Part shown: positions 3,711 through 62,716 of the stretch, one piece after another
Numbering within the stretch: the first letter of the stretch is position 1
How the letters are laid out: every line of letters starts with the position of its first letter
NCBI RefSeq assembly: GCF_900177685.1
Contig: NZ_FXAY01000001.1
Location: forward strand, 744,001-808,000
Length of the DNA stretch: 64,000 bases
Reading direction: 5' to 3'
Origin: Agreia pratensis
GTDB taxonomy: Bacteria > Actinomycetota > Actinomycetes > Actinomycetales > Microbacteriaceae
Made by a program: the position numbers and the translations under genes
Notes under the pieces: model-generated
Seen by the model: only the letters and a program-made list of their open reading frames with translations
Told to the model about the DNA's origin: nothing
The model's database searches: none

Positions 3711-3807
3711 GCGCTGATCGAGTAGCCGCGCGAGGCACGAGCACGGCGTATCGAAATCACCCCGACGGTGGCCTCGATACGCTCGTTCCTCGCTACTCGG
3801 CCAGCGC
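3711..3807. repeat. Family A palindromic repeat (copy A1)
   Basis: Left half begins gcgctgatcgagtag and ends cgtatcgaaatcacc. The right half is its approximate reverse complement, running from ggtggcctcgatacg to ctactcggccagcgc. It lies between two convergent genes. Together with copy A2 it brackets a separate palindrome. Confidence 0.85.
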
Positions 3808-3927: not shown

Positions 3928-4026
3928 TGCGCCGATTGAGTAGCCGCGCGAGGCACGAGCACGGCGTATCGAAATCACCCCGACGGTGGCCTCGATACGC
4001 TCGTTCCTCGCTACTCATCCAGCGCA
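3928..4026. repeat. Family A palindromic repeat (copy A2)
   Basis: Nearly identical to A1, including the same centre (aaatcaccccgacggtgg) and the same arms, in direct orientation about 215 bp away. It ends just before the stop codon of the RNA methyltransferase gene. Confidence 0.85.
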
Positions 4027-7667: not shown

Positions 7668-7834
7668 TGATCGAGTAGTCGCGCGAGGAACGAGCCGACG
7701 TATCGAGATCACCGCGGCAGGTCTCGATACGGTCGCGGGCGACCTACTCGACCAACGCAGAACCGGTCGCGGGCGACCTACTCGACCAACGCAAAACCAC
7801 TCGCGGGCGACCTACTCGACCAACGCAGAAGGCG
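7668..7834. repeat. Family A repeat with tandemly triplicated right arm (copy A3)
   Basis: A left half (ctgatcgagtagtcgcgcg), a centre palindrome (tatcgagatcaccgcggcag/gtctcgata), then three copies of a 34-bp right arm containing tcgcgggcgacctactcgac. The third copy has a few substitutions. It occupies the convergent junction between the glucosidase and the M23 peptidase gene. Confidence 0.9.
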
Positions 7835-15676: not shown

Positions 15677-15746
15677 CCGAGCGCGGGTGTTCTCGCCCAA
15701 CGCGGTGGCCGCGCCTGCACGCTCGGCGAGAACACCCGCGTTCGGC
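15677..15746. repeat. Family C palindrome (copy C1)
   Basis: Arms CCGAGCGCGGGTGTTCTCG and CGAGAACACCCGCGTTCGG surround a roughly 30-bp centre. A second element with the same arms and a different centre lies at 36455-36523. This copy lies in the divergent promoter region between the transglycosylase and yajQ. Confidence 0.8.
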
Positions 15747-16973: not shown

Positions 16974-16978
16974 CGGGT

Positions 16979-17025
16979 CGTTCCCTGAGCTTGTCGAAGG
17001 GGCCCTTCGACAAGCTCAGGGAACA
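16979..17025. repeat. Family B palindrome pair (copy B1)
   Basis: GTTCCCTGAGCTTGTCGAAG followed by its reverse complement, an essentially perfect palindrome with arms over 20 bp. It lies in the convergent junction of nudK and the siderophore-binding protein and could act as a bidirectional terminator, though no T-tract follows. Confidence 0.88.
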
Positions 17026-27237: not shown

Positions 27238-28107
27238 GTGCCGCCCACTTCGTTCCCTGAGCCTGCCGAAGGGAACTCCGCGGGTCCGCGCTGGTCGAGT
27301 AGGCCGCCCGCGGCCGTATCGAGACCACCGGCAGATGGTCTCGATAGGCTTCGGCCGCAAGCGGCCTCGGGCTACTCGACCGGCGCAGCGCCCGAGCGCC
27401 AGGCCCTCGCGCGCGCCGCATACGGACGCACCACATCTTCTGAAGACGAGGTTCGCGCCGCCGAAGCCGCGCGCGAGCTGCACGAGTTCGATCTGCGCGA
27501 GGCCGCCGAGCGGCAGGCTCTGCACCAGGCCACCCTCGATGCCGCAGATGCCCGCGAGCGCCGAGCCCATCGCATCCGGTCTCGCTCTGTTCGAGTGCTG
27601 GGCGCGCTCGTCGTGCTGGGCGTGATCACGGCCGGGGCTGCCACATTTCTCGCTCCGACCGCGCCTGCTCCGTTGAGCGATCTGCCGCGCACCGCCCCTG
27701 CGACAAGCGAACCCCGCGTCGATCTCGGCCCGGGCATCGTCGCGACGGTGCCGTCCGGGCCTGTGGGCCGGACAAGCTCGGGCAGCGCGGCTTCGGCCGA
27801 GCATTGGTTCGACGAGCCGCAGAAGGACACCGACCGGCTTCCGCAGATCGTGGGGAATATCGACCCGTCGTCGACACGCGCGGTAGACCCCAGGGTCAAG
27901 GGCTGGCAGGTGTTCGTAGCCAAGGACACCGCCGGGGGCTTCTGCGTGATTGCTCGCGAGACTCCGAATGGCGTAGCAGGTGCCGGATGCGCGACGCCCG
28001 AGCAGTTCACGTCGGCCGGCATCCTGCTGAACACGGGCGGCGCGACCGCGATCACGGTCTACTGGGACGGATTCGACCTGACCGTCGAGTCCTCCCCGTC
28101 TTCTTAG
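27238..28107 (+). CDS. Single-pass membrane protein of unknown function with repeat-derived N-terminus
   Basis: A 289-residue product if initiated at the GTG that follows AGGAG by 8 nt; that Shine-Dalgarno overlaps the menF stop. Residues 5-50 are translated entirely from a family B and a family A intergenic repeat. The conserved-looking protein begins at about residue 52 (ERQALARAAYGR) with a charged helical segment. A transmembrane helix follows at about 125-145, then an extracellular domain with two Cys (GGFCVIA, GAGCATP). No ATG, GTG or TTG start exists between the repeat and the charged segment. Function is unknown. Confidence 0.65.
   Translation: MPPTSFPEPAEGNSAGPRWSSRPPAAVSRPPADGLDRLRPQAASGYSTGAAPERQALARAAYGRTTSSEDEVRAAEAARELHEFDLREAAERQALHQATLDAADARERRAHRIRSRSVRVLGALVVLGVITAGAATFLAPTAPAPLSDLPRTAPATSEPRVDLGPGIVATVPSGPVGRTSSGSAASAEHWFDEPQKDTDRLPQIVGNIDPSSTRAVDPRVKGWQVFVAKDTAGGFCVIARETPNGVAGAGCATPEQFTSAGILLNTGGATAITVYWDGFDLTVESSPSS
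27251..27274. repeat. Family B repeat (copy B2), inside coding sequence
   Basis: CGTTCCCTGAGCCTGCCGAA plus GGGA, a single arm of the family B core. It is translated in frame as part of the N-terminus of the membrane protein gene. Confidence 0.7.
27288..27387. repeat. Family A repeat (copy A4), inside coding sequence
   Basis: A complete two-armed element, from gcgctggtcgagtaggccg to cgggctactcgaccggcgc, with centre tatcgagaccaccggcagat/ggtctcgata. It lies within the open frame and contributes about 33 codons without a stop. Confidence 0.8.
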
Positions 28108-32753: not shown

Positions 32754-32868
32754 GTGGTCTCGATACGCCTCGGCCGCAGGCGGCCTCGAGCTACTCGACC
32801 AGCGCAACACTTCCTGCGCTGGTCGAGTAGGCGCGCGACGAAGGAGCCGCCGTATCGAGACCAGCGCG
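32754..32868. repeat. Family A repeat in inside-out order (copy A5)
   Basis: The half ending ctactcgaccagcgcaa comes first and the half beginning tgcgctggtcgagtagg second, separated by a few bases, so the outer arms face each other. It lies between the menA stop and the upstream SRPBCC gene. Confidence 0.82.
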
Positions 32869-36454: not shown

Positions 36455-36523
36455 CCGAACGCGGGTGTTCTCGCGCTGCGCGGTGGCTAGGCCACGGCGG
36501 TCGGCGAGAACACCCGCGCTCGG
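36455..36523. repeat. Family C palindrome (copy C2)
   Basis: Arms CCGAACGCGGGTGTTCTCG and CGAGAACACCCGCGCTCGG with a centre containing gcggtgg. The element is within one base of the length of C1 at 15677-15746. It lies between the menE promoter and the 3' end of the ohr gene. Confidence 0.8.
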
Positions 36524-36540
36524 CACGGGAACGGAGGAGA

Positions 36541-37511: not shown

Positions 37512-37612
37512 ATGGTCTCGATACGTCGGCTCCTTCGTCGCGCGACTACTCGACCGGCGGACCCTCTCGCTGATCGAGTAGGCCGCCCGCGGCCGTATCG
37601 AGATCTCCGGCG
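37512..37612. repeat. Family A repeat in inside-out order (copy A6)
   Basis: The half tggtctcgatacgtcgg...ctactcgaccggcgg comes first, then tcgctgatcgagtagg...gtatcgagatctcc. It separates the ohrR promoter from the menB stop. Confidence 0.82.
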
Positions 37613-38561: not shown

Positions 38562-38663
38562 GCGCCGATCGAGTAGCGGTCGCGAGGAACGAGCACCGCG
38601 TATCGAGATCACATCCGTCGTGATCTCGATAGTCGGTTCGTTGCTCGCTACTCGACCAGCGCG
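38562..38663. repeat. Family A repeat (copy A7)
   Basis: Standard order: gcgccgatcgagtagcgg, a centre of tatcgagatcacatccgtcg followed by tgatctcgata, then ctactcgaccagcgc. It lies between the menB promoter and the 3' end of the next gene. Confidence 0.85.
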
Positions 38664-51910: not shown

Positions 51911-52005
51911 CGTTGGTCGAGTAGCGAGGGACGAGCGTATCGAGACCACAGTTACGGCGATCTCGGTACGTCGGCTCCTTCGTCGCGCGACTACTCGATC
52001 AGCGC
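51911..52005. repeat. Family A repeat (copy A8)
   Basis: cgttggtcgagtagcgaggg, then a centre of cgtatcgagaccacagttac followed by ggcgatctcggtacg, then gcgcgactactcgatcagcg. The left half is shortened relative to A1. It lies between the convergent HAD and bS22 genes. Confidence 0.83.
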
Positions 52006-52183: not shown

Positions 52184-52294
52184 AGGGACCTCACGATTTT
52201 GAGCTTCGCTGCGCAGATCGCAGCGGAAGAGAATTTTGCCTCGGAGCAGTCTACAAGGCCAATCGCTGAACGACTAATGCACGTCGAACCCCTC

Positions 52295-52318
52295 CGTTTC
52301 CTGAGCCTGTCGAAGGGA
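52295..52318. repeat. Family B repeat (copy B3)
   Basis: GTTTCCTGAGCCTGTCGAAG plus GGA, a single arm of the family B core, just upstream of the gabT promoter. Confidence 0.65.
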
Positions 52319-52339: not shown

Positions 52340-53671
52340 ATGGTTCGCGACTTCGATATCACCCAGCAGCGCTTGCTCGTCACTGAACTTCCGGGGCCGA
52401 AGTCGGTGGCGCTCCAGGAGCGTCGGGTCCGCTCCGTCTCTCGTGGCGCCGGCACCCTGGCGAACATCTACATGGAGCGCGGCGCTGGAGCGATTCTCGT
52501 CGACGTCGACGGAAACCAACTGATCGATCTCGGGTGCGGAATCGGTGTCACCACGATCGGCCACGCGCATCCGGATGTCGCCGCCGCGGCGGCCGCTCAG
52601 GCCGGCAAGCTCACGCACACCCTCTTCACCGTCACCCCCTATGAGAACTACGTGCGGGTGGCCGAGAAGCTCGCCGAGATCACGCCGGGCGACTTCGAGA
52701 AGCACTCGATCCTCGTGAATTCCGGCGCCGAGGCCGTGGAGAACGCGGTGAAGATCGCGCGCAAGTTCACGGGGCGGCGCGCGATCGTGAGCCTCGACCA
52801 TGCATTCCACGGGCGCACGAACCTCACCATGGCCATGACCTACCGCCCGTGGCCGGAGCGCGCCGGCATGGGGCCGTTCCCGGGCGAGGTCTACAGCGTT
52901 CCCACGAGCTACCCATTCCGCGACGGGCTCTCGGGCGCCGAGGCCGCCGAGAAGACCATCGACTACATCACCACCCACATCGGCGCATCCGAGGTCGCGG
53001 CGTTCTTCGTGGAGCCGATCCAGGGCGACGGCGGAATCGTGATTCCGGCGCCCGGCTACTTCGCCCGCATCGCCGAGTTCTGCCGCGACAACGGCATCGT
53101 CTTCGTCGCCGACGAGATCCAGGCGGGTATCGCCCGCACCGGAACCTGGTACTCGATCGAGCACCACGACGGCGTGATCCCCGACCTCATCACCACGGCC
53201 AAGGGCATCGCGGGTGGCTTCCCGCTCGCCGCTGTCACGGGTCGCGCAGAGATCATGGATGCCGTGCAGCCCGGCGGCATCGGCGGCACCTTCGGCGGCA
53301 ACCCGGTCTCGACCGCGGCCGCCCTCGAAGTGTTCGACATCATCGAGCGAGAGGGCCTGCTGGCCGAGGCGCAGCGGGTCGAGGCGTCGCTGTGGGCGCG
53401 CATCGGCGACTGGGCCGAGAAGTTCGATGTGGTCGGCGAGGTCCGCGGCAAGGGCGCCATGTTCGGCGTCGAGCTCGTGAAGCCGGGCACCCGAGAGCCC
53501 AACCCCGAGGCTCTCACCGCCATCCTGAAGTACGCCACCACGCACGGCGTGATCGTGCTGGATGCGGGCAGCTGGGACTCGGTGCTGCGCATCATGCCGA
53601 GTGTGGTCATCAGCGACGAACTCATCGGCGACGCAGCGACGGTCCTCGAAGAGGCACTGGCCCTGCTCTAG
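52340..53671 (+). CDS. gabT: 4-aminobutyrate aminotransferase
   Basis: A class III PLP aminotransferase of 443 residues. Markers are NIYMERGAGAILVDVDGNQLIDLG, FHGRTNLTMAMT, VADEIQAGIARTGTWYSIEH and the PLP lysine in LITTAKGIAGGFPLAAVTGR, followed by GGIGGTFGGNPVSTAAAL. It converts GABA and 2-oxoglutarate to succinate semialdehyde and glutamate. No gabD or transporter is adjacent. The ATG is 6 nt after TAGGCT. Confidence 0.93.
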   Translation: MVRDFDITQQRLLVTELPGPKSVALQERRVRSVSRGAGTLANIYMERGAGAILVDVDGNQLIDLGCGIGVTTIGHAHPDVAAAAAAQAGKLTHTLFTVTPYENYVRVAEKLAEITPGDFEKHSILVNSGAEAVENAVKIARKFTGRRAIVSLDHAFHGRTNLTMAMTYRPWPERAGMGPFPGEVYSVPTSYPFRDGLSGAEAAEKTIDYITTHIGASEVAAFFVEPIQGDGGIVIPAPGYFARIAEFCRDNGIVFVADEIQAGIARTGTWYSIEHHDGVIPDLITTAKGIAGGFPLAAVTGRAEIMDAVQPGGIGGTFGGNPVSTAAALEVFDIIEREGLLAEAQRVEASLWARIGDWAEKFDVVGEVRGKGAMFGVELVKPGTREPNPEALTAILKYATTHGVIVLDAGSWDSVLRIMPSVVISDELIGDAATVLEEALALL

Positions 53672-53674
53672 CCA

Positions 53675-54029
53675 CCTTGCGTTGATCGAGTAGCCACGCG
53701 AGGAACGAGCACGGCCTTGCGTTGATCGAGTAGCCACGCGAGGAACGAGCACGGCCTTGCGTTGATCGAGTAGCCACGCGAGGAACGAGCACGGCCTTGC
53801 GTTGATCGAGTAGCCACGCGAGGAACGAGCACGGCCTTGCGTTGATCGAGTAGCCACGCGAGGAACGAGCACGGCGTTGCGTTGATCGAGTAGCCACGCG
53901 AGGAACGAGCACGGCCTTGCGTTGATCGAGTAGCCACGCGAGGAACGAGCACGGCGTATCGAGATCAGCCCACGGTGGCCTCGATACGCTTCGGCCGCGG
54001 GCGGCCTCTGGCTACTCGACCAGCGCAGT
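53675..54029. repeat. Family A repeat with left arm tandemly amplified seven times (copy A9)
   Basis: Seven direct 40-bp units (53675-53954), each containing gttgatcgagtagccacgcg and aggaacgagcacgg. They are nearly identical; the only change seen is the first base of unit six. A single centre and right arm follow (tatcgagatcagcccacggtggcctcgatacg to ctactcgaccagcgc). It fills the 367-bp convergent gap between gabT and the bldC-like gene; no gene is seen in it. Confidence 0.95.
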
Positions 54030-54038
54030 ACGCGGGGG

Positions 54039-54236
54039 CTATGCCGTGTCTGCTGCGTGCTGCGTCAGCGCCTCTGCGACCGCCGTCTCGGGCACTCGAA
54101 AGCTGCGCCCGAAGCGAATCGCCGGCATCTCGCCCGAGTGCACCATGCGATACACCGTCATCTTCGACACACGCATCATGTCTGCGACCTCGGCCACGGT
54201 CAGAAAGCGCACATCGGGCAGGTCTGAGCCGGCCAT
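54039..54236 (-). CDS. BldC-like MerR-type DNA-binding protein
   Basis: A 65-residue single winged-HTH protein: FLTVAEVADMMRVSKMTVYRMVHSGEMPAIRFGRSFRVPETAV, the excisionase/MerR fold seen in actinobacterial BldC. It lacks an effector domain. BldC in Streptomyces represses developmental genes; here the role is inferred by similarity only. A GAGGAGA Shine-Dalgarno is 6 nt before the ATG. Confidence 0.87.
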   Translation of the reverse strand: MAGSDLPDVRFLTVAEVADMMRVSKMTVYRMVHSGEMPAIRFGRSFRVPETAVAEALTQHAADTA

Positions 54237-54268
54237 GGCGTCTCTCCTCTATACGAGCACTGCAACGA

Positions 54269-54282
54269 GTCACAGGAGTGAC
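54269..54282. promoter_or_regulatory. Inverted repeat upstream of the bldC-like gene
   Basis: GTCAC-AGGA-GTGAC, a perfect 5-bp dyad about 33 bp before the start codon. A possible operator. Confidence 0.35.
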
Positions 54283-54350
54283 GAATGAGACTCCGTGATG
54301 ATTCGCAACTCTAGGGGGTGCACCGGATGCGGGGCAACCGGGTCCCGGCC

Positions 54351-54851
54351 CTATTTGCGCAGTCGCGACACCAGCTTGGTGGCGTTGGCCTGCAGATCTT
54401 CGACGACGGCCCGCGCCTGGTGGCTCGAGGTCGCGACCGTGCGCCCGACGTTTCGAGCGAATTCCGAGGCCGAGCCCGCGGCATCCGAGCTCTGGCCGGC
54501 CACTGCCGTGTCTGCCCACTCAGCGTCGTCGTCTTTGAGCGAACCGTCGAAGTCGGCCGAGAGAAAGGGAATGGCCCAGTCTTCTACCTCTTCGAGCGGC
54601 GAGGCGTCGAGCTTGTAGTAGCGGTGCTGCCCCTCTTCGCGAACGACGACGAGGCCGGCGTCGCGCAGAACTTTGAGGTGCTTCGACACCGTGGGCTGGC
54701 TCAGGTCGAGCGCGTGAACCAACTCAGAAACGCTCGACTCCCCCGCATGTGGCACGACCTCAGCGGAGCCCGCCGCCATGTAGCGATCGAGCAGCAGCTC
54801 GAGCAGGTGGCGTCTCGTCGGGTCAGCGATCACGGAGAAGATGTCGGCCAT
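54351..54851 (-). CDS. ArsR/SmtB-type winged-helix regulator with C-terminal extension
   Basis: A 166-residue protein. The HTH domain is IFSVIADPTRRHLLELLL, LVHALDLSQPTVSKHLKVLRDAGLVVVREEG and QHRYYKLD. No metal-binding ELCV cysteines are present, so metal sensing is unlikely. An acidic then helical C-terminal tail (FARNVGRTVATSSHQARAVV) is unusual. The upstream extension of the frame is discarded because TACCCT lies 6 nt before this ATG. It is divergent from the potassium uptake genes. Confidence 0.87.
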   Translation of the reverse strand: MADIFSVIADPTRRHLLELLLDRYMAAGSAEVVPHAGESSVSELVHALDLSQPTVSKHLKVLRDAGLVVVREEGQHRYYKLDASPLEEVEDWAIPFLSADFDGSLKDDDAEWADTAVAGQSSDAAGSASEFARNVGRTVATSSHQARAVVEDLQANATKLVSRLRK

Positions 54852-61592: not shown

Positions 61593-62540
61593 ATGAGCGC
61601 ATCCGGAGGAAGCAAGGCGATCATCGCCGCGCTGGCGGCCAATCTCGGTATCGCTCTCACCAAGTTCATCGCGTTTCTCTTCTCGGGATCGTCGTCGATG
61701 CTGGCCGAGAGCGTGCACTCCGCCGCCGACTCGGGCAATCAGCTGCTGTTGCTGCTCGGAGGCCGCAAGTCACGCAAGCAGGCCGACCGGGCGCATCCGT
61801 TCGGCTACGGCCGCGAGCGCTACGTCTACGCCTTCGTCGTGTCGATCATCCTGTTCTCGGTGGGTGGCGTCTTCGCGCTCTACGAGGGCATCGAGAAGAT
61901 CAACAACCCGCACCCGCTCGAGGTGTGGTGGTTGCCGATGCTGGTACTCGTCATCGCCATCGGGCTCGAAGGGTTCTCGCTGCGCACCGCGATCGGCGAG
62001 TCGAACCACACTCGGGGCTCGCTGAGTTGGTTGCAGTTCATCCGTCGGGCGAAGGCACCTGAGCTGCCGGTCGTGCTGCTGGAAGACACCGCCGCCCTCC
62101 TGGGACTCGTCTTCGCGTTTGCCGGAGTCGGCCTGACCGTGCTCACCGGCAACGGCGTGTGGGACGGCATCGGAACCGTCTTCATCGGAGCCCTACTCGT
62201 GCTCGTCGCCGTAATCCTGGGCATCGAGACGAAGAGCCTGCTGGTCGGAGAGGGGGCCACCGACGAAGACCTCGTGAAGATCGAGAACGCCATCACGTCG
62301 AGCCCGGAGGTCGAGCACCTCGTGCACCTGAAGACCATGTATCTGGGCCCAGAGGAGATGCTCGTCGGCGCCAAGATCACGCTGCCCGCGGCGACCACGC
62401 TCACCGATATCGCGTTGGCCATCAATGCTGTCGAGGCGCGCATCCGTGAGGCCGTGCCGATCGCCCGGGTGATCTACCTCGAGCCCGACGTCTACGCGCC
62501 GAGCGTCGCCGACGCCACCGGCTCTGCGCCGGTCGAGTAG
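61593..62540 (+). CDS. Cation diffusion facilitator family transporter
   Basis: A 315-residue, six-helix metal/H+ antiporter. The first metal-site helix is MLAESVHSAADSGNQLLLLLG, HPFGYGRERYVYAFV follows, and the second site is in EDTAALLGLVFAF. A cytoplasmic C-terminal domain follows. Zn2+, Fe2+ or Mn2+ export is likely; the metal is not determinable. The last codons, including the stop, lie within a family A repeat. Confidence 0.92.
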   Translation: MSASGGSKAIIAALAANLGIALTKFIAFLFSGSSSMLAESVHSAADSGNQLLLLLGGRKSRKQADRAHPFGYGRERYVYAFVVSIILFSVGGVFALYEGIEKINNPHPLEVWWLPMLVLVIAIGLEGFSLRTAIGESNHTRGSLSWLQFIRRAKAPELPVVLLEDTAALLGLVFAFAGVGLTVLTGNGVWDGIGTVFIGALLVLVAVILGIETKSLLVGEGATDEDLVKIENAITSSPEVEHLVHLKTMYLGPEEMLVGAKITLPAATTLTDIALAINAVEARIREAVPIARVIYLEPDVYAPSVADATGSAPVE

Positions 62541-62716
62541 GCCGCCCGCGGCACCCGTGCGCCGGTCGAGTAGGCCGCCCGCGGCACCCCTGCGCTGATC
62601 GAGTAGGCCGCCCGCGGCCGTATCGAGATCCGTCGCGGCGATCTCGATACGCCGGCTCCTTCGTCGCGCGACTACTCGATCAGCGGAGAGCCATGGGCGC
62701 GACTACTCGTTCAGCG
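62525..62716. repeat. Family A repeat with triplicated left arm and duplicated right arm (copy A10)
   Basis: Three left arms of 33 bp (gccggtcgagtaggccgccc type; the third has ctgatcgagtag), one centre (gtatcgagatccgtcgcggc followed by gatctcgatacg), then two right arms (gcgcgactactcgatcagcg and gcgcgactactcgttcagcg). Its left end supplies the stop of the cation transporter gene, and its right end supplies the tadA stop. Confidence 0.92.

Follow-up and report, generated by a model that had tools for sequence, protein, structure and literature searches.

Structure of the array

How did one strand of a dispersed hairpin come to stand seven times in a row between two convergent genes? The array lies in the window, the whole stretch of 64,000 nucleotides that we analysed, at positions 53675–53955, where Tandem Repeats Finder (TRF) reports a period of 40 bp, 7.0 copies, and 99% matches. 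The head-to-tail units, on the forward strand, start at 53675, 53715, 53755, 53795, 53835, 53875, and 53915. Units 1–5 and 7 are identical and a single base differs in unit 6, in agreement with the original prediction of seven near-identical 40-bp copies. The units had been taken for copies of one half of a palindrome. They do number seven, but each consists of an outer strand (O) and an apical hairpin without the inner strand (I), and is not a whole half. The inner strand (GTATCGAGATC, 53956–53966, forward strand) is present after the last copy only, where it completes the left half together with the last O of the array. A 10-bp centre separates it from the right half (53977–54022, reverse strand), which has one inner strand, a 24-nt apical part, and one outer strand.

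The array starts 3 bp after the stop codon of a class-III aminotransferase gene (PF00202; 52340–53671, forward strand), with which a small helix-turn-helix gene (HTH_17, PF12728; 54039–54236, reverse strand) is convergent. The units abut, and the unique spacers that separate the repeats of a CRISPR are absent. At the gathering threshold, Rfam finds three tRNAs only in the whole window. Taken as a whole, the explanation that we lean towards is that the 40-bp array is a young minisatellite that grew out of a single strand of a REP-like hairpin.

Anatomy and pairing of the half-element

To describe the element, 95 halves were extracted from 840 kb of the contig that carries the array (C10). A half is about 35–50 bp long and consists of the outer strand (TGCGYTGRTCGAGTAG), a spacer of 12–24 nt that forms a variable apical part, and the inner strand (GTATCGAGAYC). 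Halves often occur in inverted pairs. On a single strand of the half, GRTY near the start can pair with RAYC at the end, and the conserved stretch (GTAG, GTATCGA) and the variable apical part sit between them. Taken alone, each arm of the palindrome amounts to an imperfect hairpin. GTAG is present in 92 of the 95 halves, partly by construction, since the search motif included GTAG with up to two mismatches. The apical spacers fall into classes, in several of which stem changes are compensated (tcg..cga, ccg..cgg, gcg..cgc). Most spacers are palindromic; a 12-nt class (15 of 95 halves) has no continuous stem.

The variable outer positions covary. In this genome R:Y is a Watson-Crick pair in 93 of 95 halves (shuffle mean 50.7, maximum 67) and Y:R in 91 of 95 (shuffle mean 78.6, maximum 87), where these and the following covariation counts take related copies as independent. 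Across 28 full elements, agreement at the variable positions reaches 107 of 112 cells when the strands of one half are compared, but only 36 of 56 for O and 37 of 56 for I when the two halves are compared with each other. Because these positions agree far better within halves than between them, the basic element is the half and not the whole palindrome. A single long cruciform of both arms is disfavoured as the conserved structure, as the two halves mismatch each other at variable positions. The same covariation is seen in 35 distinct halves taken from 26 of 30 loci in 12 chosen genomes, with R:Y paired in 34 (shuffle maximum 28) and Y:R in all 35 (shuffle maximum 31); three control column pairs are at or below their own shuffle maxima. 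Outer pairing of the half is thus suggested by covariation, and the hairpin presumably folds in vivo. When seven pieces of the window are folded as DNA, they fold no better than shuffles (z from −0.99 to 1.31).

Base pairing at the GTAG tag is uncertain. The tag pair K:M is formed in 33 of the 35 distinct halves of the 12-genome sample (shuffle maximum 29). In genome G198 it is formed in 79 of 100 listed rows (shuffle maximum 79) and in 33 of 51 distinct halves (mean 27.3, maximum 38), and in genome G268 it is T:A in 42 of 47 halves, the changes being all uncompensated. The pair is nearly invariant in this genome (T:A in 93 of 95 halves), as it is in a broader sequence scan, where 25 distinct strict halves are found in 18 among at least 115 matching stretches. 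The apical stems were examined in the same two genomes. In G268, at least four perfect pairs are present in 37 of 47 halves, compared with 2 of 47 when the spacers are shuffled, and there are 25 distinct 5′-stem strings, short ones included. In G198, at least four perfect pairs are present in 43 of 95 rows, with six distinct stems.

Other copies in the window and the genome

With at most one mismatch, the outer motif occurs 28 times in the window, compared with 2.0 expected from shuffles, and the inner motif 18 times, compared with 1.5. The counts are far above those of shuffles, indicating that the family of the array is not due to chance. The window holds ten elements, the array locus included. 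Elements with both halves lie at 3715–3803 and 3933–4021 (two copies 218 bp apart), 27292–27382, 38566–38658, and 51914–52001. Inside-out pairs of halves, in which the inner strands are outside, lie at 32756–32862 and 37514–37605.

Two further elements of the window have repeated outer strands. The element at 7668–7822 carries three outer strands in its right arm with a 34-bp step (TRF 7730–7830, 34 bp × 3.0), which bears out the triplicated right arm proposed for 7668–7834. The element at 62530–62713 carries three outer strands on the left with a 33-bp step, and one complete and one diverged outer strand on the right. For this locus (given as 62525–62716), the proposed triplication of the left arm holds (TRF 62524–62618, 33 bp × 2.9), but the right arm is not plainly duplicated: its second copy, at 62703–62713, is partial and diverged and lies 31 bp away.

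Beyond the window, further arrays in the genome step by 30, 31, and 38 bp. Of 57 clusters with several motifs in 840 kb of C10, 12 contain a repeated O, two of these being bare O pairs, which supports the claim that the amplified arm and its unit length vary from locus to locus. Other arm-amplified copies in the genome, on whose existence the original prediction depended, are therefore present. Its further suggestion that arms are the units of amplification is right in that the arms differ by locus, but what is amplified is O with the apical sequence, and the inner strand hardly ever. Among the 57 clusters, 18 have the tags outside and 11 have them inside. The genome has 139 exact halves. On C10, the density of halves is 11–25 per 100 kb at 600–960 kb, compared with 4–6 per 100 kb at 1–300 kb.

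Three outer-strand arrays elsewhere in the genome (L057, L058, and L059, on contigs C2, C3, and C5) precede nearly identical downstream DNA. On C5, a DUF222 gene follows the array at C5:104366. Contigs C2 and C3 end after their arrays, perhaps because the downstream DNA is multicopy. DUF222 (13E12-like) genes were considered as candidate partners of the element; the genome has seven copies, one of them just downstream of the C5:104366 array.

Distribution among genomes

The exact pattern is found in 76 of 299 Microbacteriaceae genomes and in 32 of 85 genera, and the reversed control has no match among the matches listed. Copy number reaches 1,123 exact halves in one genome (562 + 561), and five genomes of one genus have 1,123, 644, 321, 1, and 0. 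With a wider pattern, a sample of 246 genomes from across the class gives 28 with matches, 7 of these having a single match only; the reversed control gives one match overall. Sixteen of the 28 belong to a single family (f32), five to the window's own family, and one, with 27 matches, to another (f9); the remaining six, with a single match each, belong to other families. The scattered non-actinobacterial names of the broader scan, in which strict halves were found in 18 of at least 115 stretches, are left out of this picture. Among the open-access papers listed, no title or abstract describes the hairpin family.

Comparison with a sister species

For 31 of 58 clusters in this genome, the corresponding orthologous gap could be identified in 800 kb of the sister species G005. 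Element motifs are present in both genomes at 20 of these gaps and not in both at 11; among the 11, the motif at 794577 is due to chance and falls within a gene, and 692362 and 720448 lie in rearranged stretches. Arm number differs at no fewer than five of the 20 shared loci. This genome and G005 have, respectively, 1 and 3 arms at 280501, 2 and 1 at 608625, 2 and 1 at 616872, 1 + 3 and 2 + 2 at 751668, and 7 and 2 at 797683, the 40-bp array. The two units of G005 at the array locus differ from each other, whereas the seven here are nearly identical, which supports the recent expansion that had been predicted. The shared half at 771292 has a compensated stem change between the two genomes, and that at 782566 has been swapped for another class.

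In five other congeners that have both flanking genes, the gap at the array locus contains no motif with at most one mismatch; in G007, the gap gave only a short match. No target duplication is seen at two clean empty sites (144272 and 592463), the other absent loci being too diverged to read.

Polarity of the tandem copies

In 36 copy-rich genomes, we counted 321 short O..O steps (in 30 of the 36) and 15 I..I steps (in 3 of the 36), where short steps are those of at most 32, a range that excludes the 40-bp array itself. Of the I..I steps, eight are in G076, six in G198, and one in G282. All eight of G076 come from a simple repeat of the inner motif with a 12-bp period. In G198, five of the six span a short O strand, just as a few O..O rows of that genome span a short complete half. 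A scan of two Agreia samples with a strict filter, which the 40-bp array itself escaped, gave no I..I step; row 144613 of G005 from that scan is probably due to chance, and the polarity is taken from the 36-genome count. The 12-bp tandem of the inner motif (GTATCGAGACCC) occurs at eight places in G076 and, among the 36 genomes, in G076 alone.

The tandem copies retain the leader and O, and end within or just past the apical part. O is also repeated as the inner member of an inside-out pair (locus 616872), and at some loci O copies occur in both halves (751668 and 806530). The halves of an inverted pair face opposite ways, yet copies of I are lacking; therefore, fork direction alone cannot make the polarity. 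The forward and reverse totals (25 + 27 in G032, 32 + 31 in G198, 15 + 4 here, and 2 + 11 in G268) bear on the question of fork direction neither way. Any model of how the element spreads must account for tandem amplification of nearly one strand alone.

A larger kind of array is seen in two other genomes, where whole half-hairpins recur at fairly regular steps of about 140–165 bp (G326 C1 2702765–2703785 and G527 C1 62673–63134).

Proposed origin of the array: slippage or a strand-specific enzyme

We consider it somewhat more probable than the contrary that the array belongs to a REP-like family in which slippage provoked by the hairpin duplicates the GTAG strand, after which the copies expand as a minisatellite. 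During synthesis of the GTAG strand, copying would reach or pass the apical hairpin. The hairpin would then fold out, and the 3′ end would restart just upstream of the outer strand, so that O and the apical sequence would be duplicated and I left out. Once two direct copies are present, ordinary slippage or unequal exchange could expand and homogenize them, as from the two units in G005 to the seven here.

Several observations weigh against this explanation. Since the apical palindrome is symmetric, plain slippage should copy I too, and a strand-specific cause is needed. In addition, the fillers between units often mismatch the flank upstream of the first unit. The weak tag pair, the 12-nt class with its interrupted stem, the poorer apical pairing of G198, and the window pieces that fold no better than shuffles also count against it. 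We do not claim non-templated C-rich fillers, as the 5′ leader of single elements is likewise pyrimidine-rich. Slippage thus leaves the polarity unexplained, which suggests that some factor distinguishes the two strands; both the slippage steps and this factor are what we infer.

A possible but less probable explanation is that the discrimination is made by an enzyme, a single-strand nuclease, transposase, or recombinase other than Y1/RAYT, that recognizes the hairpin of the GTAG strand and spreads the halves, the tandem O copies being by-products. The polarity itself is in line with such an enzyme, as are the very uneven copy number within one genus (from 1,123, 644, and 321 down to 1 and 0) and the several loci at which the element is present here but absent in G005. 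There is also a precedent, in that TnpA-REP is described as strand-specific and, in E. coli, as needing GTAG and a bulge (PMC8266576). However, no candidate gene has emerged. When mobilizers were sought beside the last copies in low-copy genomes (74 ORFs at 30 loci in 20 genomes), no family exceeded 4 of the 74 ORFs, a count reached by the commonest one, an ABC-transport domain, and a mobilizer at these places was rejected. If the enzyme exists, and we put this forward tentatively, Actinobacteria would carry a REP-like hairpin family with its own strand-specific enzyme acting on the GTAG strand, which spreads without target duplications and leaves one-strand arrays as its footprint; the unit number of an array would then read out the activity of the enzyme.

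Gene context and RNA signals

Slippage on a REP-like element is also to be compared with the reading in which the elements are RNA signals under selection, either bidirectional terminators or mRNA-stabilizing hairpins, and the arrays are incidental. With genes called by a simple script, 80 of the 95 halves lie outside genes. Convergent gaps hold 36 halves, compared with 18 expected by length, tandem gaps 39, compared with 43, and divergent gaps 5, compared with 19; in convergent gaps the median distance from a half to the nearest stop is 13 bp. This enrichment, depletion, and closeness to stops speak for RNA signals. However, in tandem gaps the halves are oriented about evenly, 21 with the genes and 18 against them, no terminator-like site with a T tract is present at the array locus (53300–54500, the sole stretch scanned), and the presence of the element is patchy among relatives. 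RNA signals are therefore unlikely to explain the elements.

Relation to known repeat families

REP elements elsewhere are explained by RAYT transposases. GTAG-tagged REPs are described as having GTAG 5′ of a palindrome, many copies, and mainly intergenic positions (Di Nocera et al. 2013, PMC3733652). REPs and REPINs reportedly occur alone or in pairs that have the tags outermost or innermost, with alternative complementary residues in their stems, and tandem clusters of both have been reported as well (PMC3733652, PMC3116915); a tandem array as such is therefore not new. The present family is alike in its GTAG and palindrome, its high copy number, its intergenic position with convergent gaps favoured, and its dimers with the tags outside or inside. 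It is unlike REPs in that the tag lies within a longer half whose outer ends covary, in that many apical classes occur in one genome, in that what most often recurs as a short tandem unit is a single strand of the half, and in that a cognate RAYT (Y1_Tnp) is not found in the genomes searched.

The RAYT/IS200 transposase was rejected as the spreader after searches with two models only. Y1_Tnp matched in none of eight congeners and none of 24 further genomes of 13 genera, including the one with 1,123 copies, while controls such as E. coli were matched; a second model, for RAYT, matched in none of 16 genomes. TnpA-REP is described as a strand-specific enzyme for which GTAG and stem irregularities matter (PMC8266576). 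Strand-specificity is shared by the arrays studied here, whereas the enzyme family itself is not found in the genomes searched. We call the family REP-like and not a REP family because no RAYT is found and the evidence for pairing at the tag differs between samples.

It is nevertheless conceivable, although improbable, that this is a GTAG-REP family of the ordinary kind, its RAYT having disappeared or diverged beyond the reach of the models used. The tag, the paired organization, and the gene context are the same as those of REPs, and some genomes are described as having REP sequences without a tnpA-REP gene, for which loss of RAYT genes from REP-bearing genomes has been suggested (PMC6006769). 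The consistent absence of matches in the searches above would, however, need repeated loss despite numerous copies.

Two more readings can be dealt with briefly. An assembly artefact is very improbable as the source of the seven units: the assembly is a 10-contig draft in which C2 and C3 end about 200 bp past other outer-strand arrays, but the separate genome of G005 has the 40-bp unit twice at the same place, and a like organization is seen at many loci in many genomes. Least likely of all, the halves might be attC-like sites, variable-stem hairpins with conserved boxes that are recombined as single strands by a tyrosine recombinase; the likeness is one of analogy, and the halves are dispersed between ordinary genes, with no cassette arrays noticed.

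The preferred reading, a minisatellite grown from a REP-like element, also touches two other kinds of repeat. Bacterial minisatellites or VNTRs, such as mycobacterial MIRU, are intergenic tandem units of tens of base pairs whose number differs between relatives; here, by contrast, what is repeated is a single strand of a dispersed hairpin, and this is so at many loci and across many genera. MITEs are short and non-coding and have inverted ends and many copies, whereas half-elements and inside-out pairs are common here and no target duplication accompanies the two clean empty sites. What is new is the covariation of the outer strands, the variety of apical classes, the failure to detect a RAYT across many genera, and the polarity towards the O strand. 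The result is a family of a size comparable to that of REPs, spread over many genera of Actinobacteria, in which the outer strands covary and no RAYT has been found. Its O-unit arrays would serve as variable-number markers.

Two other dispersed repeats are present in the window. A second palindrome, with arms near CGCGGGTGTTCTCGC, lies at 15677–15746 and 36455–36524; with at most one mismatch, such arms occur 13 times in 840 kb of this genome and 11 times in 800 kb of G005. A third repeat, near CCCTGAGCCTGTCGAAGGG, lies at 16978–17001, 27250–27273, and 52294–52317 and at times forms inverted pairs, with 15 matches in 840 kb of this genome and 20 in 800 kb of G005.
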